Under the pieces are notes generated by a model. That model saw only the letters and a program-made list of their open reading frames with translations, made no database searches and was not told where the DNA came from. Positions 40,211-55,571 of a DNA stretch of 64,000 nucleotides are shown here, piece by piece. This DNA is from Streptomyces dengpaensis (GTDB lineage Bacteria; Actinomycetota; Actinomycetes; Streptomycetales; Streptomycetaceae). Numbering within the stretch: the first letter of the stretch is position 1; every line of letters starts with the position of its first letter. A program made the translations under genes and the position numbers. The stretch is from the NCBI RefSeq assembly GCF_002946835.1, contig NZ_CP026652.1, positions 3,596,001 to 3,660,000 of the forward strand, written 5' to 3'.

Positions 40211-40798
40211 TCAGCGGCCCGGGGCTCTGGGCGCAGGCCGCATCGAGGGGGCCTGGCGAGTCAACTCCCTTGCCGCAGAGGAGCGTTCCGCGGTGAGGGC
40301 GTGCGCCGCTGCCGGTGTCGAGCCCGAGCGCATACGGGCCGCCACGGCCGTCGGCAGGCGCGGGGCGATGGCTACGTCGGCCGCGACGCGGGAGCGCAGG
40401 GCGCCGACCTGGGCCAGGTGATGGTGCAACTGGTCCGGGGTGAGCGTCTCGGGCCGGACGCTCACCGCGGCCCGTACGGCGGCCGGGTGCGTCGGGATGG
40501 GTGCGGCGCCCCGGGGTCCCGCGTGCGACGCGGCGCGCGTGCGGGGGCTGTGCGGGCCGCTCCGGCCGGCACCGCCGGGCTTGACCGTCCGCCAACTCAT
40601 CGTGCCCGTCAGCTCGTTGACGTGCACCTCGGTGCGTGGGCGCGGCTCGCGCCGGCCTGATGAGCGACGGCGGGCGGCGTCGGCCCGGTCGCCGGGGGCG
40701 TTGCTCTGTGCCTGCTGTGCCGCCCCCGCCTTCCGCGCCGTACCCGTCCTCTGCGCTGTCTGCGCCCTTCGTTCGGGGGTGCGGTCGTTACTGGCCAT
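40211..40798 (-). CDS. Hypothetical basic protein, last gene of the secretion-locus minus arm
   Basis: A 195-residue protein rich in Arg, Ala, Gln and Pro with no membrane segment. The first ~60 residues are disordered and basic; a more regular part follows (TLTPDQLHHHLAQVGALRSRVAADVAIA). I recognise no domain. Its ATG overlaps the end of the upstream repeat-rich gene by 11 bp, placing it in the same transcript as the lytic transglycosylase arm. The basic, helical C-terminal half could bind DNA or a partner; this is inference. Confidence 0.72.
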   Translation of the reverse strand: MASNDRTPERRAQTAQRTGTARKAGAAQQAQSNAPGDRADAARRRSSGRREPRPRTEVHVNELTGTMSWRTVKPGGAGRSGPHSPRTRAASHAGPRGAAPIPTHPAAVRAAVSVRPETLTPDQLHHHLAQVGALRSRVAADVAIAPRLPTAVAARMRSGSTPAAAHALTAERSSAARELTRQAPSMRPAPRAPGR

Positions 40799-42467
40799 GG
40801 GCTCGGGGGCTCTGCGTGTACGGGTTGTCGGCCAGTGCGCGGGCGCGTTCCGCGAGGCGGCCCATGCGGGTGCGGGCCGATTCGAGTTGCTCGATGTCGT
40901 CGGCTGCGGGGCCGCCGTCGGCCGTGAGCTCGGTCCATACGCCGATCAGGTCGCGTCCCAGGTTCAGGCCCTGCAGGGGGTCGCGGACGGCGCGCCAGGC
41001 CGCGGCCGCGCTCTGTACGTTGCCGTACGCGGCGCGCGGGTCGCGGTGGCGTCGGCGGACCCTGGCGAGGTCCAGCGACAGGTGGAACGACCTGAGGGCG
41101 TCACCGGCCAAGTAGGCAATGTACGCGGTCAGTTCGCGCAGCTTCAGCACCTCAGGGTGCTCCTCGCCGAGCGACTGCGCCGCCTCTGCGACGGCACGCT
41201 CCGCCATGCCCGCCGCCGCTTCGATCCGGCCCATCTTCACGGCCTCGTTGATCCGCGCCACGGGCTCCGCGAGGAACGCCCCCGCACCCTCCCTTTCCGC
41301 GACCGGCTCCGGCGCCAGCACCGCCTCGGCGACGGCGTCGAAGCCGCGTACGGGAGCGGGCTTCGGCTCGGGCTCGGGCTCGGGCTCCAGCACGGGCACT
41401 TCCTCCGCCGCGGGTGCCGCATGGGCGGCCGGAGCGGGCCCGAACTCCCCCTTCGGAGCCGCCACGGCCCCGGCCGCCGACTCGGGCACCGCCCGCAGTA
41501 CGAAGGTGGATGGGGTGGGACTGCCGGGCGCGGGCCTCACCGGCTCCGGTGCCGGGAACGGCTCGGGCTGGTGTTCTGGCTGGGGCTGGGGCTGGGGCTT
41601 GGGTGCGGGCGCTGGCGCGGGCGCTGGCGCTGGCGCGGGCGCTGGCGCGGGCGCTGGCGCGGGCGCGGGCGCTGGCGCTGGCGCGGGCGCTGGCGCTGGC
41701 GCGGGTGCGGACGTTGGCGGCGACGCGGGCTCAGGGCTCGGTGTCGGTTCCGGGGTCGCGCGCAGCAGGTACGTCGGCTTGTCCCGGCGCGGAGCCGACG
41801 GCGTTTCGGGCGCCGCGGGCACGCCCGTCTCCGCCGGGCCGCCCTCACGCGCCCACTCACGGGGCACGGGAGCAGGGGCAGGGGCAGGGGCAGGTGCCGC
41901 TGCGGGCGCGGGCTCAGATTCCCGTGTCGGTTCCGGGACCGCGCGCAGCACATACGTCGCCTTGTCCCGGCGCCGGACCGTCGGCGTCTCCGACTCCCGC
42001 TCACCGGACACCGGAGCGGGCGGAACCGGCGCCTCAGCCTCAGCCTGCGGCTGCCGCTGCTGCACTCGGTCCCGCGCCCGCGGCTCCGCCGGACTCCCCA
42101 CCCGTACCGGCTCCCCCGCATACCGGCTGGAGCCGTCCACCTGTACCTGGAGCGGTACGACGAAGCCGATGCGTTCGTCGTGGACGGTGGCGAGGACGGG
42201 GTGGCCGGTGGCGAGGGCCAGGCGGTGGAGGTAGTTCAGGACGGCGGTCTGGAGGGTCTCGCCGGGAGCGGCGACGACCGGCATACCGCCGACCGTGGCC
42301 GCACCGTCCGCAGGGGACACCGCCCCGCCGGCGCCACTCGCACCGCCCGACGCCGGTACACGCACCTCGATCGGCGTCACCCCGGCGGCCGGTTGTCCCC
42401 CGGGGACGGCACCGGCCGAGCGCTGCCGCTTGAGTTCCCGCTTCTGTTCGCGGCTGAGTCGAGACAT
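40788..42467 (-). CDS. Repeat-rich protein with C-terminal helical (TPR-like) domain
   Basis: 559 residues in three parts. The N-terminal ~125 residues are a small folded region (YLHRLALATGHPVLATVHDERIG, shown in part) after a basic start (MSRLSREQKRELKRQR). A disordered middle holds three copies of a short motif, KATYVLRAVPEPT, KPTYLLRATPEPT and STFVLRAVPES, joined by (Ala-Pro)n runs encoded by a GGCGCT/GGCGCG array at 41603-41710. The last ~170 residues are helical with TPR-like spacing. The start lies 7 nt after the lipoprotein stop. No catalytic motif; a scaffold or adaptor for the secretion locus is plausible. Confidence 0.82.
   Translation of the reverse strand: MSRLSREQKRELKRQRSAGAVPGGQPAAGVTPIEVRVPASGGASGAGGAVSPADGAATVGGMPVVAAPGETLQTAVLNYLHRLALATGHPVLATVHDERIGFVVPLQVQVDGSSRYAGEPVRVGSPAEPRARDRVQQRQPQAEAEAPVPPAPVSGERESETPTVRRRDKATYVLRAVPEPTRESEPAPAAAPAPAPAPAPVPREWAREGGPAETGVPAAPETPSAPRRDKPTYLLRATPEPTPSPEPASPPTSAPAPAPAPAPAPAPAPAPAPAPAPAPAPAPAPAPAPKPQPQPQPEHQPEPFPAPEPVRPAPGSPTPSTFVLRAVPESAAGAVAAPKGEFGPAPAAHAAPAAEEVPVLEPEPEPEPKPAPVRGFDAVAEAVLAPEPVAEREGAGAFLAEPVARINEAVKMGRIEAAAGMAERAVAEAAQSLGEEHPEVLKLRELTAYIAYLAGDALRSFHLSLDLARVRRRHRDPRAAYGNVQSAAAAWRAVRDPLQGLNLGRDLIGVWTELTADGGPAADDIEQLESARTRMGRLAERARALADNPYTQSPRAHGQ
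41603..41710. repeat. Hexanucleotide array coding for (Ala-Pro)n
   Basis: About 108 bp of GGCGCT/GGCGCG/GGCGCC-type hexamers; read on the minus strand it gives an uninterrupted Ala-Pro run of about 18 pairs. Length changes by whole hexamers keep the frame. Confidence 0.85.
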
Positions 42468-42474
42468 GGTTCCC

Positions 42475-43341
42475 TCACTCGGGGTGATCAGGGGAGGCAG
42501 TCGAGGCAGAGGTGGACGGGGACAGGGTCGGGGACGGCGGAACCGCGGCCTCCACCGCTGTCACGTCGGCGACGCGCCACGGCTGCCCGCGGCCCGCGCG
42601 CGTGAGCTTGAGGAAGACGTTCGCCCGTGGACCCGTACCCGTCCAGCCGTCGCGGCCGTGGGCCGTGCCCTCGACGAAGAGGGCGCGGTAGGCCAGGACG
42701 TCCGTGTCGACGGGGCCGTCGCCGTCGTCGTCCGACGTTACGCCCACCGTGGTCCACGCCTTGTGGTCGGCCCAGGTGTTCCACTCCTCGCCGGCCCCGC
42801 TCGCCGGCCGGTACGACCGTTCGGCGGCGGCCTTCTTCGCCGTGAACCAGCGCGCGGAGCGCAGCATGGCGTCGTGCGGACCGGAGTCGTACTTGGTGTC
42901 ATGGCCGTACGCCACCTCCGCCCACGCCTCCGCCACCTCCGTCGCGTCCGCCCCGTCGACTCCCGACGGGCTCGGCACCCGCGCGTCCGCGCCCAGCGGT
43001 TTCCCCGACGGGAGGGGGGCCTTGGGCGCCACCGACGGCTCGGCCGAGGGTGATGAACCGGGCGCGCCCACCGCGTCACGCTGGTCCCGCAAGCCACAGC
43101 CCGTCAACGCCAGCAGCCCGGTGACGGACACGACCACCGCGACGATCGTCCTCGTACGCGTCGCGGTACGCACCCCAGTACGCATCCCCGTATTCGTCCT
43201 CGTACCCGCGCTGGTCCTCGTACCCGCGCTGGTCCTCGTACTCGCGCTCGTCCTCGTACTCGCGCTCGTCCTCGTACTCGCGCTCGTCCTCGTACTCGCG
43301 CTCGTCCTCGTACTCGTACTCGTACTCGTACTCGTCCTCAT
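42475..43341 (-). CDS. Lipoprotein with repetitive leader, VirB8/TcpC-like candidate
   Basis: About 288 residues. A lipobox (VTGLLALTGC) follows the hydrophobic segment IVAVVVSVTG, so the mature part is outside the membrane. Before it is an odd ~50-residue Arg/Thr/Ser leader (TRTSASTRTSAS...) encoded by an 18-bp tandem array. The ATG at 43341 has AGGAGG at 9 nt; a GTG at 43359 overlapping the upstream stop (GTGA) and an ATG at 43185 just before the signal are alternatives. The exported domain (AEVAYGHDTKYDSGPHDAM, then VFLKLTRAG and WRVADVTAVEA) resembles small NTF2/VirB8-like folds by pattern only. Confidence 0.78.
   Translation of the reverse strand: MRTSTSTSTSTRTSASTRTSASTRTSASTRTSASTRTSAGTRTSAGTRTNTGMRTGVRTATRTRTIVAVVVSVTGLLALTGCGLRDQRDAVGAPGSSPSAEPSVAPKAPLPSGKPLGADARVPSPSGVDGADATEVAEAWAEVAYGHDTKYDSGPHDAMLRSARWFTAKKAAAERSYRPASGAGEEWNTWADHKAWTTVGVTSDDDGDGPVDTDVLAYRALFVEGTAHGRDGWTGTGPRANVFLKLTRAGRGQPWRVADVTAVEAAVPPSPTLSPSTSASTASPDHPE
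43193..43336. repeat. 18-bp tandem array (VNTR-like) in the lipoprotein leader
   Basis: About seven units of CTCGTCCTCGTACTCGCG-type sequence (variants CTGGTCCTCGTACCCGCG) end in a (CTCGTA)n run. The units are 18 bp, so copy-number change would alter leader length by six residues without frameshift. Confidence 0.88.
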
Positions 43342-43355
43342 CCTCGCCCCCCTCC

Positions 43356-44390
43356 TCACTTCAGCCCCAGCCAGGGTGCCGGATCCACGTACTTGCCGTT
43401 CTGCATGACCTCGAAGTGCGCGTGCGGTCCCGTCGAGAATCCGGTGGAGCCCACCGCGCCGACCCGCTGGCCGACCTTCACCTTCTGCCCGTCACTGACG
43501 CTGATGGCCGACATGTGGTTGTAGGTCGTCGAAATCTGGTCGCCATGGATGGTTCCGTGGGAGATCACCACACGGTTTCCGTAGCCGTTGGACCAGCCGG
43601 CGAAGGTGACCTCGCCGTCCCGGGCCGCCTTGAGCGGCGTGCCGGCCGGGGCGCTGAAGTCGATGCCGGTGTGCAGCTTGTAGACGTGCAGGGTCGGATG
43701 CATGCGCATGCCGTACGGCGACGTCACGGGCGGGTTGCCCGGGAGCGGCATCGCCATCTGCTGCCCGGCCGGGATCTTGCCCGGCGGGTCGTCCACCGAC
43801 TCGTACTTGGGAATCAGGGACTTGATGCGGGCGACGTAGTTCTGGGTCTCGGTGTACGGGGGTATGCCGCCGTACTGGTGCACCGCGCCCGGTCCCGCGT
43901 TGTACGCGGCGAGCGCGAGGTCGAGTGTCTCGCCGTGTGCCTCGCCGCGCTTCTTGTAGCCCTCGACCTGCTTGGCGAGGGCGCAGTCGTAACGGCCCTG
44001 CGCCATGATCGCGTCTCCGGGGTCGTACGGCGATATTCGGCCGTTTCCGTCGTCGTCCCGGCCCCAGGTCTTCCAGGTGCCCGGCATGAACTGCGACAAC
44101 CCCTCGGCGCCGACCGGGGATTGGGCGTTGGGGTTCCAGCCCGACTCGGCCTCGATCTGCGCGGCGACGACCGCCGGCTTGATGACGTCACACAGGGCGC
44201 CCGCCTTGAGGACCCAGGGCACGTACGCCTCCGGAACGGCACCGTCCTTCAGACCGCCCCCCGCGCCCGACCCCGTATCCGCCTCGCTCGGCGATCCGCT
44301 CACCGCGACCATCATCACCACCGGCATGATCACCGCGGCCAGACAGCCGCCGACCACCCAGGTCATGGTGCTTCCGCCCCCGTTGGACAT
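43356..44390 (-). CDS. Lytic transglycosylase fused to M23 endopeptidase (VirB1-like)
   Basis: A 344-residue exported wall hydrolase. A membrane anchor (VVGGCLAAVIMPVVMMVAV) is followed by an SLT domain: AAQIEAESGWNP (catalytic Glu82), GLSQFMPGTW, and ALAAYNAGPGAV. A Pro-rich linker leads to an M23 zinc endopeptidase: HTGIDFSAPAG (His and Asp ligands) and GPHAHFEVM (HxH). It would cut both glycan and peptide bonds of the wall. Such fusions are the VirB1-type components of Gram-positive conjugation systems, and this gene heads the minus arm, divergent from the ATPase arm. Confidence 0.92.
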   Translation of the reverse strand: MSNGGGSTMTWVVGGCLAAVIMPVVMMVAVSGSPSEADTGSGAGGGLKDGAVPEAYVPWVLKAGALCDVIKPAVVAAQIEAESGWNPNAQSPVGAEGLSQFMPGTWKTWGRDDDGNGRISPYDPGDAIMAQGRYDCALAKQVEGYKKRGEAHGETLDLALAAYNAGPGAVHQYGGIPPYTETQNYVARIKSLIPKYESVDDPPGKIPAGQQMAMPLPGNPPVTSPYGMRMHPTLHVYKLHTGIDFSAPAGTPLKAARDGEVTFAGWSNGYGNRVVISHGTIHGDQISTTYNHMSAISVSDGQKVKVGQRVGAVGSTGFSTGPHAHFEVMQNGKYVDPAPWLGLK

Positions 44391-44558
44391 CGGCTCCCCT
44401 CAGCCTCAAGATCCCGTCGTGTTCACGCAGTTGAGTCTCTCGGCTCACACCCGTTTCCCGCGTCACCACGACGTCACAGGCTCGTCCCAGGAACTCACGC
44501 CCCGTTACCTAACCTGTTCGGGCGCCGTGAAGATCGGTGGGCGACGAGGAGATGGCGG

Positions 44559-45164
44559 ATGAGAGTGGCGATGCAGGAGGCGGCGATGCAGGGCGTGGCG
44601 ATGCAACGGAACGAACGGCACGGATCTGACAGGCCTGTTGAGGCGGTTGGGCCGGTTGGGCCCGAGATCTGGGTGCGCGGGCCCGTCGGCGGCGAGACGG
44701 AGGCCCGTCGGCCGCAGGAGGAGGAGCGGCCCGGCCGCGGCGCCGTCAGCGCGCGGCGGTTCGCCTGGGTCGCCACGCACGGCGGAGCCGGGGCCTCGAC
44801 GCTCGCCGCCGTCTTCGGCGGCCATGACGCGGGCCGCAGCTGGCCCCGCCCGGATCAGGGCGAGCCGGGGTCCGTCCTCCTCGTCGGGCGTACGCACGCG
44901 GCCGGACTTGACGCCGTGTCACACACCCTCGACATCTTCCGGCGCGGCGACGCACCCCCGGGACTCGATCTCGACGCCATCGTGCTGGTCGCGGACGCGC
45001 CCGGCCGGCTCCCCCGTCAACTCACCCAGCGCATCAAGGTGATCGGCTCGGTCATCGACGTCTACCGGGTGCCGTGGATGCCCGCGTGGCGCACCGGCGA
45101 CCTCACCGTGCCGCTGCCGCGCGAGACCGCACCGCTGGCCCGGCTGACCGGAGGCGCGGCCTAA
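44559..45164 (+). CDS. Degenerate ParA/MinD-like protein (DUF6668-like)
   Basis: A 201-residue protein heading the plus arm. The core begins ARRFAWVATHGGAGASTLAA, a MinD/ParA-like beta-strand and P-loop in which GGAGAST lacks the usual Lys, as in septum-site Ssd-like proteins. VLLVGRTHAAGLDAV and DAIVLVADAPGRLPRQLTQR are the following strand/helix units, and YRVPWMPAWRTGDL the last. It probably binds a partner or lipid rather than hydrolysing ATP. ATG at 44559, ribosome site GAGGAG. Its TAA stop is formed at the edge of the repeat element that follows. The DUF6668 label is from memory of related loci. Confidence 0.75.
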   Translation: MRVAMQEAAMQGVAMQRNERHGSDRPVEAVGPVGPEIWVRGPVGGETEARRPQEEERPGRGAVSARRFAWVATHGGAGASTLAAVFGGHDAGRSWPRPDQGEPGSVLLVGRTHAAGLDAVSHTLDIFRRGDAPPGLDLDAIVLVADAPGRLPRQLTQRIKVIGSVIDVYRVPWMPAWRTGDLTVPLPRETAPLARLTGGAA

Positions 45165-45422: not shown

Positions 45423-45441
45423 AGTCCCCAAGGAGAACTCA

Positions 45442-45711
45442 GTGAACGCTGTCCACGCGGCGAGTGCGACGCTGCTCGCCGCCCCCTACGTGCCCGACTC
45501 CGATGTCACCGGACCGCTCAACCAGGTCCTCGGCTACATGGCCTGGTTCGTCACCGTCGCCGCCGTGGCCGGGCTGCTGATCATCGGCTCACGCATGGCG
45601 ATCTCCCTCCGCGGCGGCGAGGGCTCCGAGCATCTGACCCAGTTCGCTGTCGTGATGGGCGCGTGCATCATCGGCGCTACCGCCGGGCCGATTGTGTCGT
45701 TCGTGTACTGA
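45442..45711 (+). CDS. Small two-helix membrane protein, VirB2/TrbC-like 1
   Basis: An 89-residue protein: an N-terminal hydrophobic leader (ASATLLAAPYVPDSD), then two transmembrane helices (GYMAWFVTVAAVAGLLIIGS and FAVVMGACIIGATAGPIVSF) joined by the loop RGGEGSEH. This is the layout of VirB2/TrbC pilins, with the short polar loop between helices. GTG start preceded by AAGGAG. The next gene is a paralogue. Likely membrane or pilus-like subunit of the secretion locus. Confidence 0.82.
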   Translation: MNAVHAASATLLAAPYVPDSDVTGPLNQVLGYMAWFVTVAAVAGLLIIGSRMAISLRGGEGSEHLTQFAVVMGACIIGATAGPIVSFVY

Positions 45712-46023
45712 GCCGGCGTACCCGGCGCGTCGGCCGAACCCCCGCCCACCGGGCGGGGGTTCTCGCGTGTTCATCTACCTGACGCCACGTCGGCAAGGGC
45801 TGATGTCCCGTCAGTACCCCGGTCATGACGATCTGTTCCCGTCTGTCACGGACACGTCACCGACAGGTGCTGGATCACTACATCGCTTGGCTGGAACTCA
45901 CAGCAGTCGCCAAGCTCACTGTGCAACCGGGAACTCGGGCGTCACAGCGCCCCCACTCACCCGCGAGCACCGCTCATGACACGCACGTTGTCGGCCGGCA
46001 GCCGACCACATCGGGGAGAAGCC
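45712..46023. other. Gap between the VirB2-like paralogues
   Basis: Besides the hairpin at 45736-45762, holds only the ribosome site (GGGGAGAAG) of the second gene; direct GTCAC repeats near 45846-45868 (GTCACGGACACGTCACCGAC) could belong to a promoter. Confidence 0.5.
45736..45762 (+). terminator. Hairpin between the two VirB2-like genes
   Basis: A perfect 12-bp stem (GAACCCCCGCCC at 45736-45747 with 45751-45762) and 3-nt loop, 24 nt after the first gene's stop. It may lower expression of downstream genes relative to the first pilin-like gene. Confidence 0.8.
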
Positions 46024-46323
46024 ATGTTCAAGGCGATAGCAGCCAAGGCCCAAGAGCACATCTACCTGGCGGACGGCAAGGTCCCCAACCCCGCGCGCGA
46101 CGCGCCGGGCGCGCTGACCGGCAAGGTCGACGACGTCCTCGGCATCCTCGCCTGGGCCGGCACCGCGGCGGGCGTCGCGGGTGTGCTGATCACCGGCGCC
46201 ATGATGGCGATCTCGATGCGCCGCGGCGAGGGCTCGGAGCACATGGGCCGCCTCGGCATGGTCCTCGGCGGCTGTGTCCTGGTGGCCACCGCGGGACCCG
46301 TCGTCACCTTCGTCTTCGCCTGA
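46024..46323 (+). CDS. Small two-helix membrane protein, VirB2/TrbC-like 2
   Basis: A 99-residue paralogue of the previous gene. After a charged leader with PNPARDAPGALTGKVDDVLG come two helices (ILAWAGTAAGVAGVLITGAM and LGMVLGGCVLVATAGPVVTF) joined by RRGEGSEH, the same loop. It lacks a clear cleavable leader. The pair may be two structural subunits, or one subunit and one membrane scaffold. ATG at 46024. Confidence 0.82.
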   Translation: MFKAIAAKAQEHIYLADGKVPNPARDAPGALTGKVDDVLGILAWAGTAAGVAGVLITGAMMAISMRRGEGSEHMGRLGMVLGGCVLVATAGPVVTFVFA

Positions 46324-46383
46324 CCGGCAGTTGATCCGACTCGACCCGCAACCGATCAGAACTGATTCGAAGGGAGCGTACCC

Positions 46384-47157
46384 ATGCTGAACTCCGGCCG
46401 GTCCCGTGGGGGCAGCGGAGAGTGGGAGCAGCCGTTCTGGCAGCAGCGAGGCTGGATCCTGTCGGCCGGGTTCCTGCTGGTGCTGCTCGTCCTCGCCGTC
46501 TTCACGCTGGTGACCGACGGCAACGAGGAGCCGGCGGGCGCGTCGGCGGACCCGAGCCCGACGTCGAGCGCCACCCCGGACCGCGGTGGCGGTGGCGGCG
46601 GCTCGGACGCCCGGCCCGCCGGCTGCCGTACCGACGACAGTGACCAGGCCAAGCCGGCCAAGGCGCCCGCGGACTTCCGCTGGAAGGCCGACGGCACCGG
46701 CCTGGTGCCGGTTTCCAAGTCCGCGGGCCCGCTCACGTACGACGGCCCTGTCTGGTCCTGCTACGCACACACGCCGATGGGGGCGGTGCTCGCCGCCCAC
46801 TCGATCACCGACCACCTCAGCTACCCGGGCTGGCGCGAGGTCGTCGAGCGTCAGGTCGTCCCCGGCGAGGGCCGGGACGCGCTGATCGCCGGCCGCTCCC
46901 AGGACGAGGACAAGCCCACCTCGGGCAAGGCCGACGCCGGCGGGTACGCCGGGTTCTCCGTCCTCTCGTACGACAAGGAGGAGGCCACCGTGATGTTCCT
47001 GCTCCGCGGCCCCAGCGCCGGTACGTACGGATCCGCGTCCGTGACCGTGCGCTGGCAGGACGGCGACTGGAAGCTCGCGCCCGACACGGACGGCACCGTC
47101 TATTCGGGGATGGCGCAGGTCAGCGGCACCTCGGGCTTCGTCACCTGGGAGGCGTGA
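46384..47157 (+). CDS. Bitopic membrane protein, VirB8-like candidate
   Basis: A 257-residue protein with one N-terminal helix (GWILSAGFLLVLLVLAVFTLV), a Ser/Pro/Gly linker, and an outside domain of about 160 residues containing two Cys (AGCRTDD and VWSCYAHT) that could pair. Landmarks are PMGAVLAAHSI, YAGFSVLSYDKEE and VTVRWQDGDWKLAP, the last like the final strands of NTF2-type VirB8/TcpC domains. The stop is 1 nt before the next start (TGAgATG), so it is coupled to the TrbL-like gene. Confidence 0.78.
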   Translation: MLNSGRSRGGSGEWEQPFWQQRGWILSAGFLLVLLVLAVFTLVTDGNEEPAGASADPSPTSSATPDRGGGGGGSDARPAGCRTDDSDQAKPAKAPADFRWKADGTGLVPVSKSAGPLTYDGPVWSCYAHTPMGAVLAAHSITDHLSYPGWREVVERQVVPGEGRDALIAGRSQDEDKPTSGKADAGGYAGFSVLSYDKEEATVMFLLRGPSAGTYGSASVTVRWQDGDWKLAPDTDGTVYSGMAQVSGTSGFVTWEA

Positions 47158-47158
47158 G

Positions 47159-48370
47159 ATGGCGTGCACCTGGAAGGTCTACGACTGTGTGGGCGAGGGC
47201 CTGAAATGGGGCCTCGGGGAGACCGGTGAGGCACTCGCCAACGGTGCCGTCGAGACCTTCGCCAAGGCGATCGGCGAGGGCGCCTCGGAGGTCCTCAAGG
47301 CGCTCAACGGCGTCTGGATCGGCATCAAGGTGGACGATGCCAAGGGCCCGGCCACGCTCATCATCAACGAGACCAGCTGGCTGGTCGGCTATGTCGCCGT
47401 GGCCTCGATCCTGTTCGCCGCGATCCGCATGGCGCTGGACCGCAAGGGCCAGCCCATGAAGCAGGCGTTCATGGGGATGTGGAAGGTCATCCTGGTCAGC
47501 GGGATCGCCGTGGGCGTCGCGCAGGCGCTCAGCGCGGCGTCGGACGCGTACGCCGCGGACGTCTACGCCAAGTCCCATCTCGGCGACAAGGCGGCCGAGA
47601 TCCTCGGGGTGATGACGCTCAGCCAGCCCGGCCTGGTGCTCATCTTCGGCCTGCTGGTGATGCTGTCGAGCTTCGTGCAGATCTGTCTGATGTACATCCG
47701 CATCGGCGTCATGATCATGCTGATCGGCACCCTGCCGCTCGCCGCCGCCTCCTCGATGACCGGGTGGGGCGAGGGCTGGTGGAAGAAGCACATCGGCTGG
47801 CTTGCGGCGTGGATGCTCTACAAGCCCGCCGCAGCCCTGATCATCTACTCGGCGACGGCGATGACCAACAGCAAGAACGCGCACGGCGATTCGGAGCTCA
47901 ACGCGAACATCGCGGGCATGGGCATGCTGATCCTCTCGGTCTTCGCGCTGCCCGCGCTGCTCAAGCTGATCGTTCCGGCGACGGCGGCGCTCGGCGGCAC
48001 GTCCGGCGGCACGGTCGCGCTCAACGCGGCCAACAACATCGCCACCGGCGCCGTGAGCATCGCCGCGGGCGGTGCCGGAGGGGGCGGTGGGGGCGGTGGA
48101 GGCGGGGGCGGCGGTAAGGCATCCGGTCCTCAGGGCTCCCCGTCCACCGGTGCCGGTGCCCCGGCCGGTGGCGGCGCTTCAGCCGGAGGCGCGGGCGGCG
48201 CCGGTGGCGCGGCCGCCGGTGGCGGAGCCGCCGCCGCGGGTGCGGCCACGGGTGGCGCGGCGCTCGCGGTGCAGGCCGCGGCGGTCGCCGTACAGACCGG
48301 CGTCGCGGCGGCGTCGGAAGTCGCCAACTCGCTCAACGACAACGACGGCATGAAGGGCCACAACCAGTAG
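47159..48370 (+). CDS. Polytopic membrane protein, TrbL/VirB6-like
   Basis: A 403-residue protein with about six helices, including WLVGYVAVASILFAAIRMAL, LVLIFGLLVMLSSFVQICLM and MLILSVFALPALLKLIVPAT, and a central amphipathic region with GWGEGWWKKHIGWLAAWMLY. This is the VirB6/TrbL pattern: a large membrane core subunit with a soluble tail. The tail (last ~110 residues) is nearly all Gly and Ala, with a 13-Gly run encoded near 48079-48117. Confidence 0.85.
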   Translation: MACTWKVYDCVGEGLKWGLGETGEALANGAVETFAKAIGEGASEVLKALNGVWIGIKVDDAKGPATLIINETSWLVGYVAVASILFAAIRMALDRKGQPMKQAFMGMWKVILVSGIAVGVAQALSAASDAYAADVYAKSHLGDKAAEILGVMTLSQPGLVLIFGLLVMLSSFVQICLMYIRIGVMIMLIGTLPLAAASSMTGWGEGWWKKHIGWLAAWMLYKPAAALIIYSATAMTNSKNAHGDSELNANIAGMGMLILSVFALPALLKLIVPATAALGGTSGGTVALNAANNIATGAVSIAAGGAGGGGGGGGGGGGGKASGPQGSPSTGAGAPAGGGASAGGAGGAGGAAAGGGAAAAGAATGGAALAVQAAAVAVQTGVAAASEVANSLNDNDGMKGHNQ

Positions 48371-48494: not shown

Positions 48495-49988
48495 ATGTCC
48501 ACCGACGCCCTGACGCGTCCCACGTACGGGAACTGGCGCAGGCCCCGCCGTCCCGGACTCGGCCCCCTGGGTCTGCTCGGTACCGTCGTCGCCTTCGGCG
48601 GACTGCTGGTGGCGCTGCTGGCGTCACTGGTCTCGCTGGCGGCCGCGGTCGTCGTGCTGGTGCCGGTCGGGCTGTTCCTCGCCCCGCTGGCGCTGCGCAC
48701 GGTCGACGGCCGCAACGTCTACCAGGTCGTCGCGGTCCGTATCGGCTGGATGAAGCGGAAGGCGAACGGCTCGCACACCTACGTCTCCGGGCCGCTGTCC
48801 AAGCGCCCCGGCGGCCGCTACCAGCCGCCCGGCCTGCTCGCGCGCACCAAGATGTACGAGGGCCGCGACGCCTACAACCGTTCCTTCGGCGTGCTGCACC
48901 ACCCGGGCCGCGGCCTGTACACCGTGGTCCTGGCCTGTGAGCCGGACGGCGGTTCGCTGGTCGACCCGGAGCAGGTCGACATCTGGGTGGCGTCCTGGGG
49001 CGACTGGCTGGCGCGGCTCTCGCACGAGCCGGGTCTGCGCGGCGCCCAGGTGGTCGTCGAGACCGCCCCGGACACGGGGACGCGCCTCGCGTCCGAGGTC
49101 CTCCCCCGCATCGCGCCCGACGCCCCGGCCGCGGCCCGCGCCGTGATGGAGGAGGTCGTCGAGCGCTATCCGTCGGCGTCCTCGGAGATGCACACCTACA
49201 TCGCGCTGACATACGGCCCGACCGGCGGCCCCAAGCGCGACATCGAGGACATCATCACCGAGCTGTCGATGCGGCTGCCGGGCCTGCTGTCCGGGCTGGT
49301 CGCGGCGGGCGGCGGCTCCGCGTATCCGCTGGCGGCCGAGCGGCTCGCCGAGATCGTACGGGTGGCGTACGACCCGGCCATCGCCCCCGATGTGCTCAGC
49401 GCCCGCGCCGAACACGCCACCACCGGCCTGGAGTGGGCCGACGCGGGCCCGGCGGCCGCCGTCGAGACCGTCACCTCGTACCAGCACGACTCGGGTGTCT
49501 CGCGCACATGGATGCTGACGCTGGCGCCGCGCGGCACGGTCCGGTCGAGCGTCCTGCGCGGGCTGCTGGAGCCGGCTCCTGGAACCCGGCGCAAGCGGGT
49601 CTCCCTCATCTACCGTCCCATCGACCCGGCGACCTCCGCCCGCATCGTGGAGTCCGACCGTCGCTCCGCGCACTTCATGGCGGGCTCGCGGCGCGGTCTC
49701 GTGCAGGCGCGGGCCAGTTCGGAGATGCAGGCCGCCGAGCAGACCGCGGCCGAGGAGGCGGCGGGTGCCGGGCTCGTGGAGTTCTCGCTGATGGTGACGG
49801 TCACCGTCGACGACAAGGAGCAGCTGCAGGACGCGGGCATCACCGTGCGCAACCTCCAGGCGTCGTCCCGCATCCTGATGCGCCCCGCGGACCGCATGCA
49901 GGCCTCGGCCTTCACCTGCACGCTGCCGGTCGGCCTGCTGCCGTGGGAGCACACCCTCGTTCCGTACCAGATCAGGGAGGCGCTGTGA
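48495..49988 (+). CDS. SCO6880-family protein (PrgI plus VirB4-N-like)
   Basis: A 497-residue membrane protein. Two close N-terminal helices (GTVVAFGGLLVALLASLVSL, AAAVVVLVPVGLFLAPLAL) make a VirB3/PrgI-like hairpin. The remaining ~420 residues are soluble with RSFGVLHHPGRGLYTVVL and the pair of CTLPVGLLPWEHTLVPYQI-type segments at the end, like the N-terminal domain of VirB4 ATPases without the P-loop half. The ATPase half is encoded by the next gene, whose GTG overlaps this stop (GTGA). The family name is from known Streptomyces annotation. Confidence 0.85.
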   Translation: MSTDALTRPTYGNWRRPRRPGLGPLGLLGTVVAFGGLLVALLASLVSLAAAVVVLVPVGLFLAPLALRTVDGRNVYQVVAVRIGWMKRKANGSHTYVSGPLSKRPGGRYQPPGLLARTKMYEGRDAYNRSFGVLHHPGRGLYTVVLACEPDGGSLVDPEQVDIWVASWGDWLARLSHEPGLRGAQVVVETAPDTGTRLASEVLPRIAPDAPAAARAVMEEVVERYPSASSEMHTYIALTYGPTGGPKRDIEDIITELSMRLPGLLSGLVAAGGGSAYPLAAERLAEIVRVAYDPAIAPDVLSARAEHATTGLEWADAGPAAAVETVTSYQHDSGVSRTWMLTLAPRGTVRSSVLRGLLEPAPGTRRKRVSLIYRPIDPATSARIVESDRRSAHFMAGSRRGLVQARASSEMQAAEQTAAEEAAGAGLVEFSLMVTVTVDDKEQLQDAGITVRNLQASSRILMRPADRMQASAFTCTLPVGLLPWEHTLVPYQIREAL

Positions 49989-51457
49989 GCGTCGCAGAAC
50001 AGAGGCAGCGGGTCGCACCGCCGCGTGGCTGGTACGGCCCCGCCGGGGGCCAGGTCGGGAACGTGGACCCGCCCGCGATGTGGCGCGCGACCACGGTTCA
50101 GGCGTGCGGCCTGTGGCCCTTCGCGGCAGGCTCCGGCGCGCCGATGACCGGGGTCCCGCTCGGGCAGCATCTGCACACCGGAGCGACGGTCTGCGGCGAC
50201 CCCATCTCCTGGTTCACGCGGGCCCGTTACATCTCCAACCCGTCCCTGTTCATGCTCGGCATGCCGGGCCTCGGCAAGTCGACGCTGGTCAACCGCATGT
50301 TGATCGGCATGGCGGCAACGGGCATCACTCCCTTGGTCCTTGGGGACCTGAAGCCCGACTACGCCGACACGGTCAGGGCGCTGGGCGGCCAGGTGATCTC
50401 CATCGGCCGTGGCGTCGGGGGCATCAATGTCCTCGACCCGGGCGCGATGGGCGAGGCGGCGGTACGGATCGGGGGCGAGCGGGGGCGTGTGCTCGCGGCG
50501 GAGGCCCACGGCCGCGTGCTGAACATGGTCGCCGCGCTCATCACCATCGTCCGCGGCCGTCCGATGGACGACCACGAGCAGTCCGTCCTCTCCGCCTGTC
50601 TGCACCACCTCGCGGAACGTACGAAGCCGGGGCGGGCGCCGCTGTTGCCGGACCTGCTGAAGGTGCTGGACGAGGGCCCCGACCGGGTTCGTGCGGTGAC
50701 CCTGGACCGGGGAAACGTGGCCCGCTACCAGGAGGCGGTGGACCCCCTGCACCGGTCGCTTCTGGGTGTCCTGGACGGTCCCCTCGGCGACACCTTCGCC
50801 GCCGAGACCTCGACCCGGATCAACCCGGCCTCGCCCGCCGTCTGCGTGGACATCTCCCGCATCGGCGAGGCGGACACCCAGCTGACCGCCGCCGCGATGC
50901 TCGCCGCCTGGTCGGACGGTCTCGGCACGGTGGCCGCCGCGCACGCGCTGGCCGATGCCGGGCTCGCTCCGCAGCGGTGGTTCTTCACCGTCCTCGACGA
51001 GCTGTGGCGTCCCCTGCGGGCCGCCTCCGGCATCGTCGAGCGGATCGACGCGCTGACCCGGCTGAACCGGTCGCTGGGCCTGGGGGACGCGAAGATCACC
51101 CACACCTTGAAGGACGCGGAGGCGCTGGGCTCCGAGTCCGACCGCGCCAAGGCGCGCGGGTTCGTGGAGCGGGCGGGGATGGTGGTCTGCGCCGGGCTTC
51201 CCCGCACGGAGATGAAGGAACTCGGCGAGATCGTGGGCATGTCCGAGCGGGAGATCGAACTGGTCTCGTCGTGGTCGTCGCCGCCCGGGTGGGCGAGTAC
51301 GGGCGGCAACGAGGAGCCGCCGGGCCGCGGCCGGTTTCTGATCAAGGTGGGCGGTCGCCCCGGCATCCCGATCAAGGTGTCCATCACGGACACGGAGCGG
51401 GCGCTGCACAACACGAACACGCGGTGGTCGGAGGCACCGTCGCTTTCGAAGGGGTGA
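49985..51457 (+). CDS. VirB4-like secretion ATPase
   Basis: A 490-residue cytoplasmic ATPase. Walker A is LGMPGLGKSTLV (about 91-102), with LVLGDLKPDYAD after it; Walker B is WFFTVLDELWRPL; and a later THTLKDAEAL fits the sensor region of the HerA/VirB4 fold. Together with the upstream SCO6880-type protein it would make one complete VirB4, split into two genes. GTG start overlaps the upstream stop. It should energise substrate transfer or assembly at the membrane. Confidence 0.9.
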   Translation: MSVAEQRQRVAPPRGWYGPAGGQVGNVDPPAMWRATTVQACGLWPFAAGSGAPMTGVPLGQHLHTGATVCGDPISWFTRARYISNPSLFMLGMPGLGKSTLVNRMLIGMAATGITPLVLGDLKPDYADTVRALGGQVISIGRGVGGINVLDPGAMGEAAVRIGGERGRVLAAEAHGRVLNMVAALITIVRGRPMDDHEQSVLSACLHHLAERTKPGRAPLLPDLLKVLDEGPDRVRAVTLDRGNVARYQEAVDPLHRSLLGVLDGPLGDTFAAETSTRINPASPAVCVDISRIGEADTQLTAAAMLAAWSDGLGTVAAAHALADAGLAPQRWFFTVLDELWRPLRAASGIVERIDALTRLNRSLGLGDAKITHTLKDAEALGSESDRAKARGFVERAGMVVCAGLPRTEMKELGEIVGMSEREIELVSSWSSPPGWASTGGNEEPPGRGRFLIKVGGRPGIPIKVSITDTERALHNTNTRWSEAPSLSKG

Positions 51458-51465
51458 CGAGGCGT

Positions 51466-51640
51466 CGCGCTTCGCGCTCGTCCTCAAACGCCGGACGGGC
51501 TGAATGATCTCCGGCGCTGGAAATGTCAGCCCCTCCGGCGTTCGAGGAGCGGGGTCTGGGGCGCTGCATCCATCAGCGGCTCCGCCGCGGGCCCAGGTAC
51601 GGGACGGGTAGGGGCGGCGGGGGCGAAAAACATTCAACGG
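51466..51640. repeat. Dispersed Streptomyces intergenic repeat, copy 2, with long hairpin
   Basis: Contains the exact 38-nt arm shared with 31136-31173 (51466-51503), a partly complementary second arm (about 51527-51558, CGTTCGAGGAGCGGGGTCTG), and at 51597-51630 the inverted 34-nt arm shared with 31070-31103. The first two arms could fold into a long imperfect hairpin between the two ATPase genes. Confidence 0.8.
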
Positions 51641-51650
51641 GAGACCGCAG

Positions 51651-53408
51651 ATGAGCAGCACACGTAAGACGACGCACGGCAGCGGCGAGGACTTCCTCCC
51701 CTGGATCGTGCCAGGTGCCGCCTTCCTCATAGGCACCCTGTTCTTCGGGGCCTGGCTGGGCGGGACGATCGGCGCGGCAGCGAGCGGCGCCGGCTGGGAC
51801 CCACCCCCGTTCAGCCTGTCCACCCTCGCCACCCTGATCAAGGAGGGCCCGGCCACGGTGTGGCCGACGGCGCCGGCCACGGCGGTCACGACCGGCATGG
51901 CGGTCGTGTTCGGCACGGTCGTCACCCTCGTCGTCGTACTCATCGCCCTCGGACGACGCCGCGTCACCAGGCCCACCGGCCTGGCCGGCCGCAGGGAACT
52001 GGCAGGCCTCCTCCCCAAGGGCGCCGCCCAGCGGGCACGCCAACTCCGCCCGTCCCTCGCCAAGTCGGGCAAGATCACCCCGGACGACACCGGCAATCTG
52101 CTCGGCAACCTGGAGCCGGGCGGCCCCGAGCTCCGCTCGAGCTACGAGGACGTGGAGCTGGACCTGATGGCCCCCCGGGCCGGCAAGTCCACCGGCATCG
52201 CGGTCCCCCGCGTCCTGCGCGCCCGCGGCAGCGTGCTGCTGACGTCGAACAAGGCGGACGTGTACAGCGTGACCCGAGCGGAGCGCGAACGCGTAGGACG
52301 GGTCTGGACGTTCGACCCTCAGGGCATCGCCCACAGCCCGCGCACCCTGTGGTGGGACATGCTGGCCGACGCCGCCACGATCGAGGGCGCCCGCCGCCTG
52401 GCGGGCCACTTCGTCGGCGCGGTGAACGACGACGCCTCGAAGCGCGACTTCTGGATCTCGGCGGCGCAGAACACCCTCACCGCCCTCTTCCACGCGGCCC
52501 ACCGCGGCAAGCGGCAGATCCCCGAGGTACTCGCGTGGCTGGCCGACCCGGCGGACCGCACACCGGTCGACCTGCTGCGGGACGCCGGAATGGCGGCCCT
52601 CGCGGACCAGCTGCAAGGCACCGTGCAGGGCGCCGTGGAAACGAGGGACGGCATCTACGAGACCGCCCGCCAGTGCGTGGCCTGCCTCCTCGACCCGAAC
52701 ATCGCGGCCTGGGTGACACCGGACCCGGACCTGCCGCAGTTCCTCCCCGAGCACCACGTCCTGTCCACCGACACACTCTACCTCCTCTCAAAGGACGGCG
52801 GCGGCTCGGCGGCCGGTGTCATCGCGGCGGCCGCGGACTCCGTACTGCGTGCGGGAGTCGTCGCCGCCGAGCGGATGGGCGGACGCCTCGACCCGCCGAT
52901 GGCGGCGGTGCTCGACGAGGCCGCCAACGTCTGCCGGATCTCCGATCTCCCCGACCTGTACTCGCACTTCGGCTCGCGCGGCATCAACGTCGTGACGCTG
53001 CTGCAGAGTTACCGGCAGGGCGCGCGGGTGTGGGGCGAGGCCGGCATGGACGCGCTCTGGTCGGCCGCCACGATCAAGCTGCTCGGCGCGGGTCTGGACG
53101 ACGCGGACTTCGTGGAGAAGATCTCCCGGCTGGTCGGCGAGCACGACGTGTCGACGGTCAGCTGGTCCAAGAACAAGGAAGGGCGGTCCCGTTCGACCTC
53201 GTACCGCCTCGAACGCATCCTGCCCGCCGACCGCATCCGCGCCCTGCCCAAGGGCACCGCGCTCCTCCTGGCCACCGGCATCAAGCCCGCCCTGGTCAGA
53301 CTGCGCCCCTGGTACGCCGAACCCGGCGCCGACCGCATCGCGACCGCGGCGCAGGCCGAGGTCAAAGCCATCACCGCCCGCGCCGCCGAAGGGATCACGC
53401 TCGGATGA
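51651..53408 (+). CDS. VirD4/TraD-like coupling ATPase
   Basis: A 585-residue protein with two N-terminal helices (WIVPGAAFLIGTLFFGAWLG and VVFGTVVTLVVVLIAL), then the coupling-protein ATPase domain. Walker A is MAPRAGKSTG (about 173-182), Walker B MAAVLDEAANVCRI, followed by LYSHFGSRGINVVTLLQSYRQ (shown in part), the usual T4CP Gln region. Coupling proteins recruit the substrate to the type IV channel. Without a visible relaxase the substrate may be protein, or DNA processed elsewhere. ATG at 51651 after the repeat. Confidence 0.93.
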   Translation: MSSTRKTTHGSGEDFLPWIVPGAAFLIGTLFFGAWLGGTIGAAASGAGWDPPPFSLSTLATLIKEGPATVWPTAPATAVTTGMAVVFGTVVTLVVVLIALGRRRVTRPTGLAGRRELAGLLPKGAAQRARQLRPSLAKSGKITPDDTGNLLGNLEPGGPELRSSYEDVELDLMAPRAGKSTGIAVPRVLRARGSVLLTSNKADVYSVTRAERERVGRVWTFDPQGIAHSPRTLWWDMLADAATIEGARRLAGHFVGAVNDDASKRDFWISAAQNTLTALFHAAHRGKRQIPEVLAWLADPADRTPVDLLRDAGMAALADQLQGTVQGAVETRDGIYETARQCVACLLDPNIAAWVTPDPDLPQFLPEHHVLSTDTLYLLSKDGGGSAAGVIAAAADSVLRAGVVAAERMGGRLDPPMAAVLDEAANVCRISDLPDLYSHFGSRGINVVTLLQSYRQGARVWGEAGMDALWSAATIKLLGAGLDDADFVEKISRLVGEHDVSTVSWSKNKEGRSRSTSYRLERILPADRIRALPKGTALLLATGIKPALVRLRPWYAEPGADRIATAAQAEVKAITARAAEGITLG

Positions 53409-53451
53409 CCCATGGGACGACCTCCGCCGCCGACGAACGGAACACGCTCAG

Positions 53452-53853
53452 ATGACGACCACCACCGCAGCCGCCGAACAGCCCGTCTCCGCACCACCGT
53501 TCATCCTCTACCTCGACGGCGAGGCCTACGCCGAGGAGATGCGCGGGCTCGCCGTCTGGGTGGCCGACCTGCTGCTTCCGGTGTACGGCCGTGAAGTCAC
53601 CTCGCAGCAGCCCTGGTGCCCGCGCTGGTGGGAGCACCTGGAGGCGGTGGCCCGGCTGCACGGGCTGTGGCTCGCCTGGCAGGAGTACACGGACCCGGCG
53701 GCCGGCGCGTCCGGGCCCGCCGTCTGGCACCGCGACCACCTCGGCCCCGTTCTCAACGAACTCCGGTCCCCCAGCGGCCCCTTCGCGGGGTGCAAGGCGG
53801 GCAGCCACCGCCCGAAGACGGCGCCAGCCGTGGAGACGTACGACACTCACTGA
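53452..53853 (+). CDS. DUF4913-family protein
   Basis: A 133-residue soluble protein. The core PWCPRWWEHLEAVARLHGLW and LAWQEYTDP identify the actinobacterial DUF4913 family, often found beside coupling ATPases on Streptomyces mobile or conjugation-like loci. WHRDHLGPVLNEL is the C-terminal signature. Function unknown. It starts 43 nt after the coupling ATPase. Confidence 0.85.
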   Translation: MTTTTAAAEQPVSAPPFILYLDGEAYAEEMRGLAVWVADLLLPVYGREVTSQQPWCPRWWEHLEAVARLHGLWLAWQEYTDPAAGASGPAVWHRDHLGPVLNELRSPSGPFAGCKAGSHRPKTAPAVETYDTH

Positions 53854-53908
53854 GTCTCGTCGTCCTTTACCGAGTCTCATCGTCATGACGTTTCGAGGAG
53901 AAGTACGT

Positions 53909-54373
53909 ATGAACCACCGGCACTCCCCGTCCCCGTACTCCCCGTACTTCGAGGACGTCGTCGACTGGCGTCATCACCGGGCCGGCCGGGCGCACGCCTT
54001 GGTGCGCGCGGTCCGTTCCGCGGACGGCCGCCGGGCGGTGGCCGTCGTGTCCGAACTGGCCAGCAACCCCGACGACCGCGGCATCACGGACGACTTCGGC
54101 GGAGTGGCGAACGCCGTACTGCCGGTGCTGCGCCGCAGCTTCGGCGCGGAGCTCGAACAGGTCGACTGGATCGCCCACTTCGGGGATTTCTCGTACCACG
54201 ACCCGACGGGACCCGAGACCTTCACCCGGATCACCGTGACCTCGGGACCGGCAGGGCACCACGACGACCTGAGCGGCGACCAGCCGCTGTCGGCGCGGGA
54301 GGTGGAGGAGCTGCTGGGCCGCGCGCTCGAACCCGTCGCCCAGGTGCTCGCTCGGATCGACCGGGCCGGGTGA
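53909..54373 (+). CDS. Hypothetical protein of the secretion locus
   Basis: A 154-residue soluble protein with no recognised domain. FEDVVDWRHHRAGRAHALV and AVAVVSELASNPDDRGI are the most regular parts; the C-terminus is helical (ALEPVAQVLARIDRAG). ATG at 53909 with GAGGAG. Placed 55 nt after the DUF4913 gene and 7 nt before the FolD-like gene, so co-transcribed with both. Confidence 0.8.
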   Translation: MNHRHSPSPYSPYFEDVVDWRHHRAGRAHALVRAVRSADGRRAVAVVSELASNPDDRGITDDFGGVANAVLPVLRRSFGAELEQVDWIAHFGDFSYHDPTGPETFTRITVTSGPAGHHDDLSGDQPLSAREVEELLGRALEPVAQVLARIDRAG

Positions 54374-54380
54374 GCCGACG

Positions 54381-55571
54381 ATGACCGAGCATGTGTCGGG
54401 ACGCGACGTCCTGCGCCAGGCCAGGGAGCTCTACCAGCCCTACCGTGACGCCGTGGAGCCCACGGGGCAGCGGGTGGCGATCATCCGTTTCGAACCCGCC
54501 GCCACCGATCCGCCGGACTGGCGTGTGCGCCTCGAGGCCTCCAAGGTCTCCGCCGAGCAGAAGGTGAAGAGCTTCGAGCACCTCGGCTTCACGGCGGACC
54601 ACGTCGTGATGCCGCCGGGGACCACGCGTGCGCAGTTCGCCGAGGTCCTCGACCGCGCCAACCAGGATCCCGCGACCCGCGCGATCATCGTCCAGTTCCC
54701 GCCGCCCGCCCATCTGCGCCCGCTCGTCGAGCGGATGGACCCGGCCAAGGACATCGACGCCCTGCTCAAGGGACGTTCGCAGTACAACGCGTGCGCGACG
54801 GCCGAGGGCATCTGCCGCGTCGTGGAACCGTTCGCGCGGGACGACCCGACGATCGCGGTCGTGGGCAGCAAGGGCTTCGTGGGCCAGGGCGTGGTGAACA
54901 CCCTGCGCGAGCAGGGCCACCGGCTGATGGAACTCGACGCCGGTGACGACCTGCGACGGGTACGGGACGCCGACATCGTCGTGTCCGTCACCGGCAACCC
55001 GGGCATCCTCAGCCCCGACCACCTCCGGCCGCACCACCGGCTCGTCGTGGACTCCGGTTTCGTACCGCAGCCGGACGGGAGCGTCCGCGGAGACGTCCAG
55101 CGCGCGGCGTACGGCATCCCGCAGCATCTCACCCCCGTGCCCGGCGGCATCGGCCCGGTGGAGATGGCGACCCTCATGGAACGCGTGGTCCGCAAGGAGG
55201 TCGACCCGAACGCCCCGTCCTGGAACGTCGAGCCGCGCCCCTACCTGACGAAGGAGCAGATGGCCCAGGGGGCGACGGCGACACAAGGGGCTTCGGTGGC
55301 GGCTGCGGCTCGGGGGGCTTCGGCGGCGCAGGGGGCATCGGCTGGACCGGCGGCTTCTGCGGGTTCGGCGGCGTCCGCGGGTGGTCCGCAGTCGACCGCG
55401 GCTCCGGGCAACCCCGTGGCGCAGGCCGCGAGGCTTCGCGGGGGCGGCGGCGGGGCGGGCACCGGCGGGGTGCCGGGTGGGCCGCCCGCGACCGGCCCCT
55501 CCGCATCGGTCCGCCCGCAGCTCCCCCAGCCGCCGAAGCCACCGGGAGCCGGCGGGGGTCCCGCCCGCTGA
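54381..55571 (+). CDS. FolD-like methylene-tetrahydrofolate dehydrogenase/cyclohydrolase homologue
   Basis: 396 residues. The first ~285 form a FolD: IIVQFPPPAHL, MDPAKDIDALL, the Rossmann loop VVGSKGFVGQGVV, and LTPVPGGIGPVEMATLM. The active-site Lys is present (K61 in SAEQKVKSFEHLGF), but the Tyr four residues before it is Ser57, and the PCTP motif is CATAEG. The last ~110 residues are a Gly/Pro/Ala/Gln tail. A housekeeping FolD is expected elsewhere, so this is likely a divergent copy belonging to the secretion locus; activity is uncertain. It starts 7 nt after the previous gene. Confidence 0.85.
   Translation: MTEHVSGRDVLRQARELYQPYRDAVEPTGQRVAIIRFEPAATDPPDWRVRLEASKVSAEQKVKSFEHLGFTADHVVMPPGTTRAQFAEVLDRANQDPATRAIIVQFPPPAHLRPLVERMDPAKDIDALLKGRSQYNACATAEGICRVVEPFARDDPTIAVVGSKGFVGQGVVNTLREQGHRLMELDAGDDLRRVRDADIVVSVTGNPGILSPDHLRPHHRLVVDSGFVPQPDGSVRGDVQRAAYGIPQHLTPVPGGIGPVEMATLMERVVRKEVDPNAPSWNVEPRPYLTKEQMAQGATATQGASVAAAARGASAAQGASAGPAASAGSAASAGGPQSTAAPGNPVAQAARLRGGGGGAGTGGVPGGPPATGPSASVRPQLPQPPKPPGAGGGPAR

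Follow-up and report, generated by a model that had tools for sequence, protein, structure and literature searches.

Gene content of the locus

The stretch of DNA analysed here (the window; 64,000 nt, G000:C1:3596001-3660000) comes from the chromosome of a genome that totals 8.7 Mb over three contigs and whose near named relatives are Streptomyces. At positions 40211-55571 it holds a compact type IV secretion system (T4SS) of Gram-positive type. The genes form two arms that diverge from 44.4-44.6 kb, D-C-B-A running leftward and E-F-G-H-I-J-K-L-M-N-O rightward. A preliminary description of the window had proposed such a two-armed T4SS-like gene set, and the genes were found where it placed them; at the right end it had overlooked M and N and had not recognised O as FolD-like. 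The flanking genes, which it called ordinary, are so among those scanned.

Pfam and NCBIfam profiles gave firm support to A, E, J, L, M and O and weak support to G, K and C. L (51651..53408, + strand) is a coupling ATPase of the VirD4/TraG type, which aligned with TraG-D_C (E = 1.9e-31) and T4SS-DNA_transf (4.9e-21) and matched the structure of TrwB (2.4e-5). J (48495..49988, +) belongs to the SCO6880 family (NF042935, 543 bits) and is interpreted as the membrane portion of a VirB4 split in two, the ATPase being K (49985..51457, +), which overlaps J by 4 nt. K was assigned to the VirB4 type on its Walker motifs (Walker A GMPGLGKS), its SCO6880 partner J and NCBIfam VirB4 matches at 2.5e-9 and 1.2e-8, both far under the cut-offs; a PDB sequence match at 0.01 was sought for K and none was found. 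Both K and L keep the Walker A and DE motifs.

The other membrane proteins of this arm precede J. F (45442..45711, +) is small and VirB2-like by its position and, as judged by eye, its hydrophobicity, and G (45976..46323, +; true start possibly 46024), also small, has a TrbC/VirB2 match below the cut-off (TrbC, E = 0.012). H (46384..47157, +) has no Pfam match. Its structural model (pLDDT 80.5, pTM 0.68) consists of a single membrane helix followed by an NTF2-like domain, a layout that we take to be the VirB8 fold. I (47159..48370, +) is a polytopic protein that retrieved no family in the Pfam and NCBIfam scans and is likened to TrbL/VirB6 by its position and its hydrophobicity, judged by eye. 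At the two ends of this set stand E (44562..45164, +; start uncertain), a degenerate ParA-like protein with a DUF6668 match (4.6e-7) and the loop GGAGAST, and M (53452..53853, +), with a DUF4913 match (3.3e-27).

In the left arm, A (43356..44390, -) is a VirB1-like peptidoglycan hydrolase with SLT (E = 2e-14) and Peptidase_M23 (E = 1.9e-33) domains, and B (42475..43359, -; start uncertain) is a lipoprotein with the lipobox LTGC. C (40788..42467, -) is rich in Pro and Ala, with a TPR-like C-terminal part (TPR, E = 0.058, below the cut-off) and TYxLRAxPE-type repeats seen by eye. The start of D (40211..40798, -), a small basic protein of 195 aa, overlaps the end of C, and D carries the cargo-type C-terminal motif LPTAVAARMRSG at 40322-40357. 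The family matches, the lipobox and the TrwB match thus agree with the earlier labels of SLT/M23 hydrolase, lipoprotein and VirD4-like ATPase for A, B and L. The labels that had been hedged fared unevenly: J gained an SCO6880 and the ParA-like E a DUF6668 assignment, the matches of K, G and C are weak, and I and F are still named by position and hydrophobicity.

Relatives, cargo genes and their C-terminal tails

In a survey of 295 genomes of the genus, with five candidates scored per genome, J was matched in 137, and with at least 83% identity in only 14, the source genome included; these 14 are called holders. Sixty named loci were compared. In the closest group (J 85-96% identical, 97% in G040), the flanks are the same, and B and usually D are present wherever the stretch extends far enough. 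The middle group (J 79-84%) is sited elsewhere, in some cases next to what by eye is rpoC or a gene resembling malate dehydrogenase, and the remaining loci (J 58-77%) have different flanks. The ten nearest plasmid relatives (J 71-77%) are on large Streptomyces plasmids. One relative, L037 (Streptomyces scabiei 87.22), lacks L and M by gene call and has no cargo, an amidase gene following directly after K, which may reflect joint decay of machine and cargo. L094 (G105) and L095 (G088) each hold two T4SS clusters of differing type (J 73% and 45%), close together and in opposite orientation.

Between M and the right flank lies a variable slot whose gene content differs between species, and a few cargo genes occur to the left of C or in the gap from I to J. 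In the window, the cargo gene is O (54381..55571, +), preceded by its partner N (53909..54373, +; 154 aa). O is a FolD-like enzyme (1.3e-21; FolD 4a5o) with a low-complexity tail that bears the motif NPVAQAARLRGG at 55410-55445. Aligned to FolD, it keeps the Lys, Gln and Asp positions, which we take to be the catalytic residues, and not the Tyr. Cargo of other loci includes two Zeta_toxin families (FAM7 and FAM8, 4.4e-12 and 5.8e-37), a GT4-conflict family (FAM9, 344 bits), an alarmone synthetase (FAM11; SaSAS 8vx3, 2.7e-14), a protein of ~900 aa with no Pfam match (FAM5) and FAM20, to which the scans assigned no family. Cargo differs from that of the window even in G040, the genome with the 97% identical J, which carries an additional zeta-type protein. 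In G236 (L139/L140), genes that by eye resemble nonribosomal peptide synthetase (NRPS) genes lie in the slot, with FAM5 on one side and the flavin reductase gene on the other.

Most cargo genes are regularly paired with a partner gene. N lies upstream of O in all 12 distinct O-bearing loci, the window included, and the pairs FAM6-FAM7 (8/8), FAM4-FAM5 (9/9) and FAM12-FAM11 (2/2) are equally regular, with L142 and L036, which are one locus, counted once. We regard the N-type partners as candidate immunity genes, guessed from their position; N could also be a chaperone.

Cargo proteins whose folds differ have a low-complexity C-terminal tail, in which a motif close to NPVAxAARLRSG lies mostly 30-50 residues from the end. 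A 12-column matrix was made from O and FAM5 proteins only (13 distinct 12-mers) and applied, at a threshold of 12 bits, to 998 other proteins of at least 120 aa from the loci and the window, in each case to the C-terminal 130 residues. At least 12 bits were reached by 8 of the 19 held-out cargo and D proteins (two alarmone-synthetase-like, four zeta-toxin and two D) against 0 of the 979 others, the best of which scored 11.4. Composition-preserving shuffles did as well in 0 of 2000 cases for FAM11, in 1 and 19 of 2000 for FAM7 and in 8 of 2000 for the D of the window (12.1 bits). FAM8, FAM9 and FAM20 scored below the threshold, and shuffles did as well in 203, in 67 and 156, and in 1895 of 2000 cases, respectively; as controls, C gave 186 and I gave 1330 of 2000. 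The motif appears to be common to four cargo families (O and FAM5, used for training, and FAM7 and FAM11) and to D, in which it is recognisable in most holders, often below 12 bits. Unrelated domains in O, FAM5, FAM7 and FAM11 with one shared sequence have the make-up of polymorphic effectors, and the shared sequence would serve in trafficking.

A hidden Markov model (HMM) of the tail was searched in 13 holder and 13 non-holder genomes, with 150 candidates scored per genome. Matches at E ≤ 1e-4 were retrieved in 9 of the 13 holders, the best always at the T4SS locus, and in none of the 13 non-holders (best 0.03). The training set had included four of the positive genomes (G000, G095, G173 and G263) and not the other five (G040, G108, G190, G221 and G236). 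A few matches between 1e-4 and 2e-3 sit away from the T4SS locus. Of the alarmone-synthetase-like proteins retrieved from a set of 5.8 billion sequences, 10 of 11 scored at least 14.8 bits, the query included. Among the best 120 relatives of O (62 further matches lay beyond these), at least 10 bits were reached by 58 of the 64 top-ranked, query included, and by 1 of the next 56.

Other tails were seen in more distant proteins. Distant FolD-like proteins of other actinomycetes (P0065-P0120) have different tails, many ending in Arg, and may be cargo of other machines. Tails of a plasmid type (LLxxEGxxxLR) were considered as an independent replicate and rejected, their carriers being one homologous family. 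Near plasmid-type T4SS genes, L053:15828-17285 and L068:11468-12907 encode a protein with a FIWFG start and a low-complexity tail, by eye like toxin-type glycosyltransferases; the L068 copy was scanned and gave no convincing Pfam match. The source genome itself has two more T4SS-like loci: at 4.653-4.660 Mb a cmd-like operon of six genes, and at 1.65-1.68 Mb a cluster (G000:C1:1642000-1692000, L089-L091). The latter encodes many small proteins with Pro/Ala-rich tails ending in Arg, and one of its genes (L090:5052-5453) scores 13.1 bits for the motif seen in the window, a value reached by 3 of 2000 shuffles.

Mobility genes and history of the site

The preliminary description saw no relaxase, integrase or tRNA attachment site, and we agree within the following bounds. 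The window contains no match to PF03432 or PF08751, the only relaxase families searched, and none to PF00589 (tyrosine integrase), the nearest of which is more than 300 kb away; serine recombinases were not searched. No tRNA gene lies from 11.1 kb to the right end of the window, an interval that covers 29 kb to the left but only 8 kb to the right of the locus. Direct repeats of at least 18 nt flanking the locus on both sides, which like a nearby integrase would have pointed to an integrative element, were also absent.

Elsewhere in the source genome, the single PF03432 relaxase, at 2.908 Mb, has an integrase ~4 kb away, at 2.903 Mb; in contrast to the window locus, this pair (G000:C1:2903124-2908164) is probably a genuine integrated element. 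Two relaxases of PF08751 (MOBF) are encoded, one each on contigs C2 (92 kb) and C3 (77 kb), which are probable plasmids. No TraG-D_C match was found on either, the matches in this genome being on the chromosome only, and both replicons may need a machine in trans. Their relaxase tails were tried as carriers of the cargo motif, being of similar composition, and rejected, since shuffles scored as well (891 and 474 of 2000).

The site itself is widely conserved. The flank gene ABCp (E ≤ 1e-60) is present in 222 of the 295 genomes, and E was matched, down to 3.3e-44, in at least 82: the 14 holders and 68 of the 281 non-holders. E lies within 3.7 kb of ABCp in all 63 non-holders with a listed ABCp match on the same contig, and it is near ABCp as well in G200, which ranks lower among the E matches. 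We read 20 machine-less sites, ten chosen by ABCp alone (L129-L138) and ten because E was present (L145-L154). None is a clean empty site, as C and/or E remain in 20/20: C is present in 19 by gene call, L152 has E only, and E is kept in 8 of the 10 sites chosen by ABCp and in all 10 chosen for E. Both genes occur in 17 of the 20, mostly as open frames, and the C-E pair may have a function of its own. L145 (G212), which the flank tree places as sister to holder G040, lacks F-O but still has D, C, B, A and E, and we read it as a half-deleted locus.

The flank tree comprises 39 rows, of which 19 are holder rows (G248 and L036 being one genome) and 20 are others. At least six changes of machine presence are needed on it, five of them forced by starred branches. 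Distances between machine proteins, computed without the doubled genome (G248/L036), correlate with those of ABCp (J 0.65, K 0.75, L 0.52, A 0.52, G 0.47; 0-3 of 2000 permutations as high) and of ABCa and FMNr (0.41-0.56; 2-29 of 2000), compared with 0.63 for flank versus flank. The distances of E follow ABCp (0.60; 0 of 2000) but not clearly ABCa or FMNr (73 and 91 of 2000). The machine is under purifying selection: against three relatives, dN/dS was 0.10-0.11 for J, 0.02-0.05 for K and 0.14-0.25 for L, with 0.14-0.19 for the flanking ABC genes. The cargo gene O gave 0.19-0.23 and N 0.23-0.42, and F, H and I are fast (0.36-0.59).

These patterns suggest that the machine has been inherited mainly vertically at one site in the closest group. 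The simplest account would be an old chromosomal machine that has been lost many times, the C-E pair often surviving; a weaker alternative is that recombination brought the machine into a C-E pair already in place. A recent mobile element was considered and judged unlikely, given the C and/or E remaining at 20/20 machine-less sites and machine distances that track the flanks. The preliminary description had held that absence from most relatives would make the locus an ordinary integrative element. That rule fails here: a J of at least 83% identity is confined to 14 of 295 genomes, yet the pattern suggests loss, not insertion.

Proposed function and comparison with known systems

We propose protein substrates because of the variable cargo slot and the shared tails. 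It is reasonably probable, in our judgement, that the locus encodes a chromosomal T4SS of Gram-positive type, inherited mainly vertically at one site in the closest group, with proteins as its main substrates. The earlier suggestion of a dedicated chromosomal T4SS, possibly for proteins, thereby gains support. T4SS substrates are usually recognised through C-terminal signals by the VirD4 protein. Here, the tail would be the export signal and L its reader, with C and/or D perhaps acting as adaptor or pilot in tail recognition. J and K, the VirB4-like pair, would make up the channel together with the membrane proteins F-I, and A would open the cell wall. Cargo would be released into the medium or, with higher probability, delivered to cells in contact; the tail-bearing effectors would be exported, probably into neighbouring cells. 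Partner proteins such as N would protect the producer, and since O keeps the FolD Lys, Gln and Asp positions, it could disturb the folate or NADP pools of the target cell. More tentatively, the locus may be an ancient fixed T4SS that injects polymorphic toxins (FolD-like, zeta, alarmone synthetase and glycosyltransferase) into neighbouring hyphae by means of a short and new C-terminal signal, carried also by the core pilot protein D, the machine having been lost repeatedly in the genus with C-E as an orphan remnant. If so, the locus would point to a contact weapon in a genus whose antibiotics are well known, with a FolD-like enzyme as a possible new type of toxin.

Several observations weigh against export of toxic proteins. 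Secretion, contact and toxicity are all deduced from sequence, a FolD-like enzyme would be unusual as a toxin, and zeta kinases with their partners also occur as ordinary toxin-antitoxin pairs. The tail is not universal among cargo: 11 of the 19 held-out proteins fell below 12 bits (3/7 FAM7, both FAM9, both FAM8, FAM20 and 3/5 D), and 4 of the 13 holders had no tail match at 1e-4, though two of them, G248 and G127, carry O. G254, G228 and L029 have the machine but no recognisable cargo. The immunity role of N is argued from position, and its alpha/beta model matched nothing in the PDB. The nearest characterised relative, the cmd cluster, has a developmental phenotype.

The machine could instead transfer DNA, as a conjugation apparatus without its relaxase or as a mobiliser in trans of, for example, C2 and C3. 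The closest kin outside the chromosomal groups include the large Streptomyces plasmids, C2 and C3 each have a MOBF relaxase in a genome whose TraG-D_C matches are chromosomal only, and the linear plasmid SLP2 requires related genes for its transfer (PMC2782261). We nevertheless consider DNA transfer unlikely, given the lack of PF03432, PF08751 and PF00589 matches at the locus, its retention at one site and co-divergence with the flanking genes, and the C2 and C3 relaxase tails that carry no motif beyond chance. DNA transfer also leaves the shared tails on toxin-like enzymes unexplained, and deletion of the cmd cluster left the transfer of an SLP2-derived plasmid unchanged (PMC2782261; authors' data not shown).

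Two further explanations deny export of the cargo. Resident toxin-antitoxin or counter-defence modules may have gathered at a hot spot, an idea that fits the zeta-type kinases with small upstream partners, the NRPS-like genes in the slot of one genome and the occurrence of zeta-type domains in polyvalent proteins of conjugative elements, as one passage of a published study reports (PMC5512222). A hot spot alone gives neither one C-terminal motif on unrelated enzymes nor that motif on D, and the tail HMM matches at E ≤ 1e-4 were confined to machine-bearing genomes among the 26 searched; we regard it as quite unlikely. In the other explanation, which we find distinctly improbable, the cargo genes are mere neighbours of a complex that acts in development or chromosome segregation, as does cmdABCDEF (SCO4126-4131) of Streptomyces coelicolor, whose knockout in 2009 delayed sporulation and disturbed chromosome segregation (PMC2782261). 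That cluster is likewise chromosomal, with membrane proteins, a VirB4-like ATPase and an SCO6880-like member (PMC2782261), and the six-gene operon of the source genome is of similar architecture. The presence of that operon, however, means that a cmd-like set is already encoded elsewhere; besides, a J of at least 83% identity in only 14 of 295 genomes is not expected of a core developmental function, and the motif connects the cargo with D.

The separate cmd-like operon at 4.65 Mb also argues against the window locus being the cmd operon of the source genome, a comparison made within this genome. Across the 19 kb read there, neither a wall hydrolase nor a cargo slot adjoins that operon, and its K-like and L-like proteins are 21 and 27% identical to those of the window. 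The window locus had been called uncharacterised. No description of it or of the tail was found in the titles and abstract starts of the literature searched, which left out preprints and most subscription papers; the statement needs tempering in that the related chromosomal cmdABCDEF has been knocked out and close kin (J 71-77%) are on plasmids. In two Streptomyces plasmids, NZ_CP109471 and NZ_CP107978, the T4SS genes have the same order from A//E to L (J 76 and 74%, K ~83-85%), although these loci are plasmid-borne, have other flanks and no detected D or B, and are typed MOBP by PLSDB.

The antibacterial T4SS of Xanthomonas and Stenotrophomonas (X-T4SS) is a different, Gram-negative machine, with a larger, structured C-terminal domain on its effectors. 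The likeness is in how those effectors were found, by a shared C-terminal consensus and an adjacent immunity gene, according to work on S. maltophilia (PMC8262851). Classical polymorphic toxins do not appear to use T4SSs, as stated in part of a 2012 survey. The FAM11 cargo is related to SaSAS, one of the exported alarmone synthetases of PMC12691689; in the passages concerned, one S. albireticuli homologue stands beside TrwB/TrwK/TrwI-like genes and a T4SS is suggested, and those passages do not include a tail motif, cargo diversity or an analysis of the machine. The Streptococcus suis 89K T4SS, also Gram-positive, is reported to export the protein SspA-1; it is on a pathogenicity island, and the relevant section mentions neither a polymorphic cargo set nor a shared tail (PMC12857230). 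The same review (2025), in that section, calls dedicated effector translocation by Gram-positive T4SSs a long-standing question with one case, S. suis. The window locus brings together a machine, possible substrates that share one motif, genes that are candidates for immunity, natural losses and a sister genome in which the locus is half-deleted, so that the question becomes directly testable in a non-pathogenic soil Streptomyces. If the proposal is true, the locus would stand beside the S. suis system as a rare protein-delivering T4SS in a Gram-positive bacterium.

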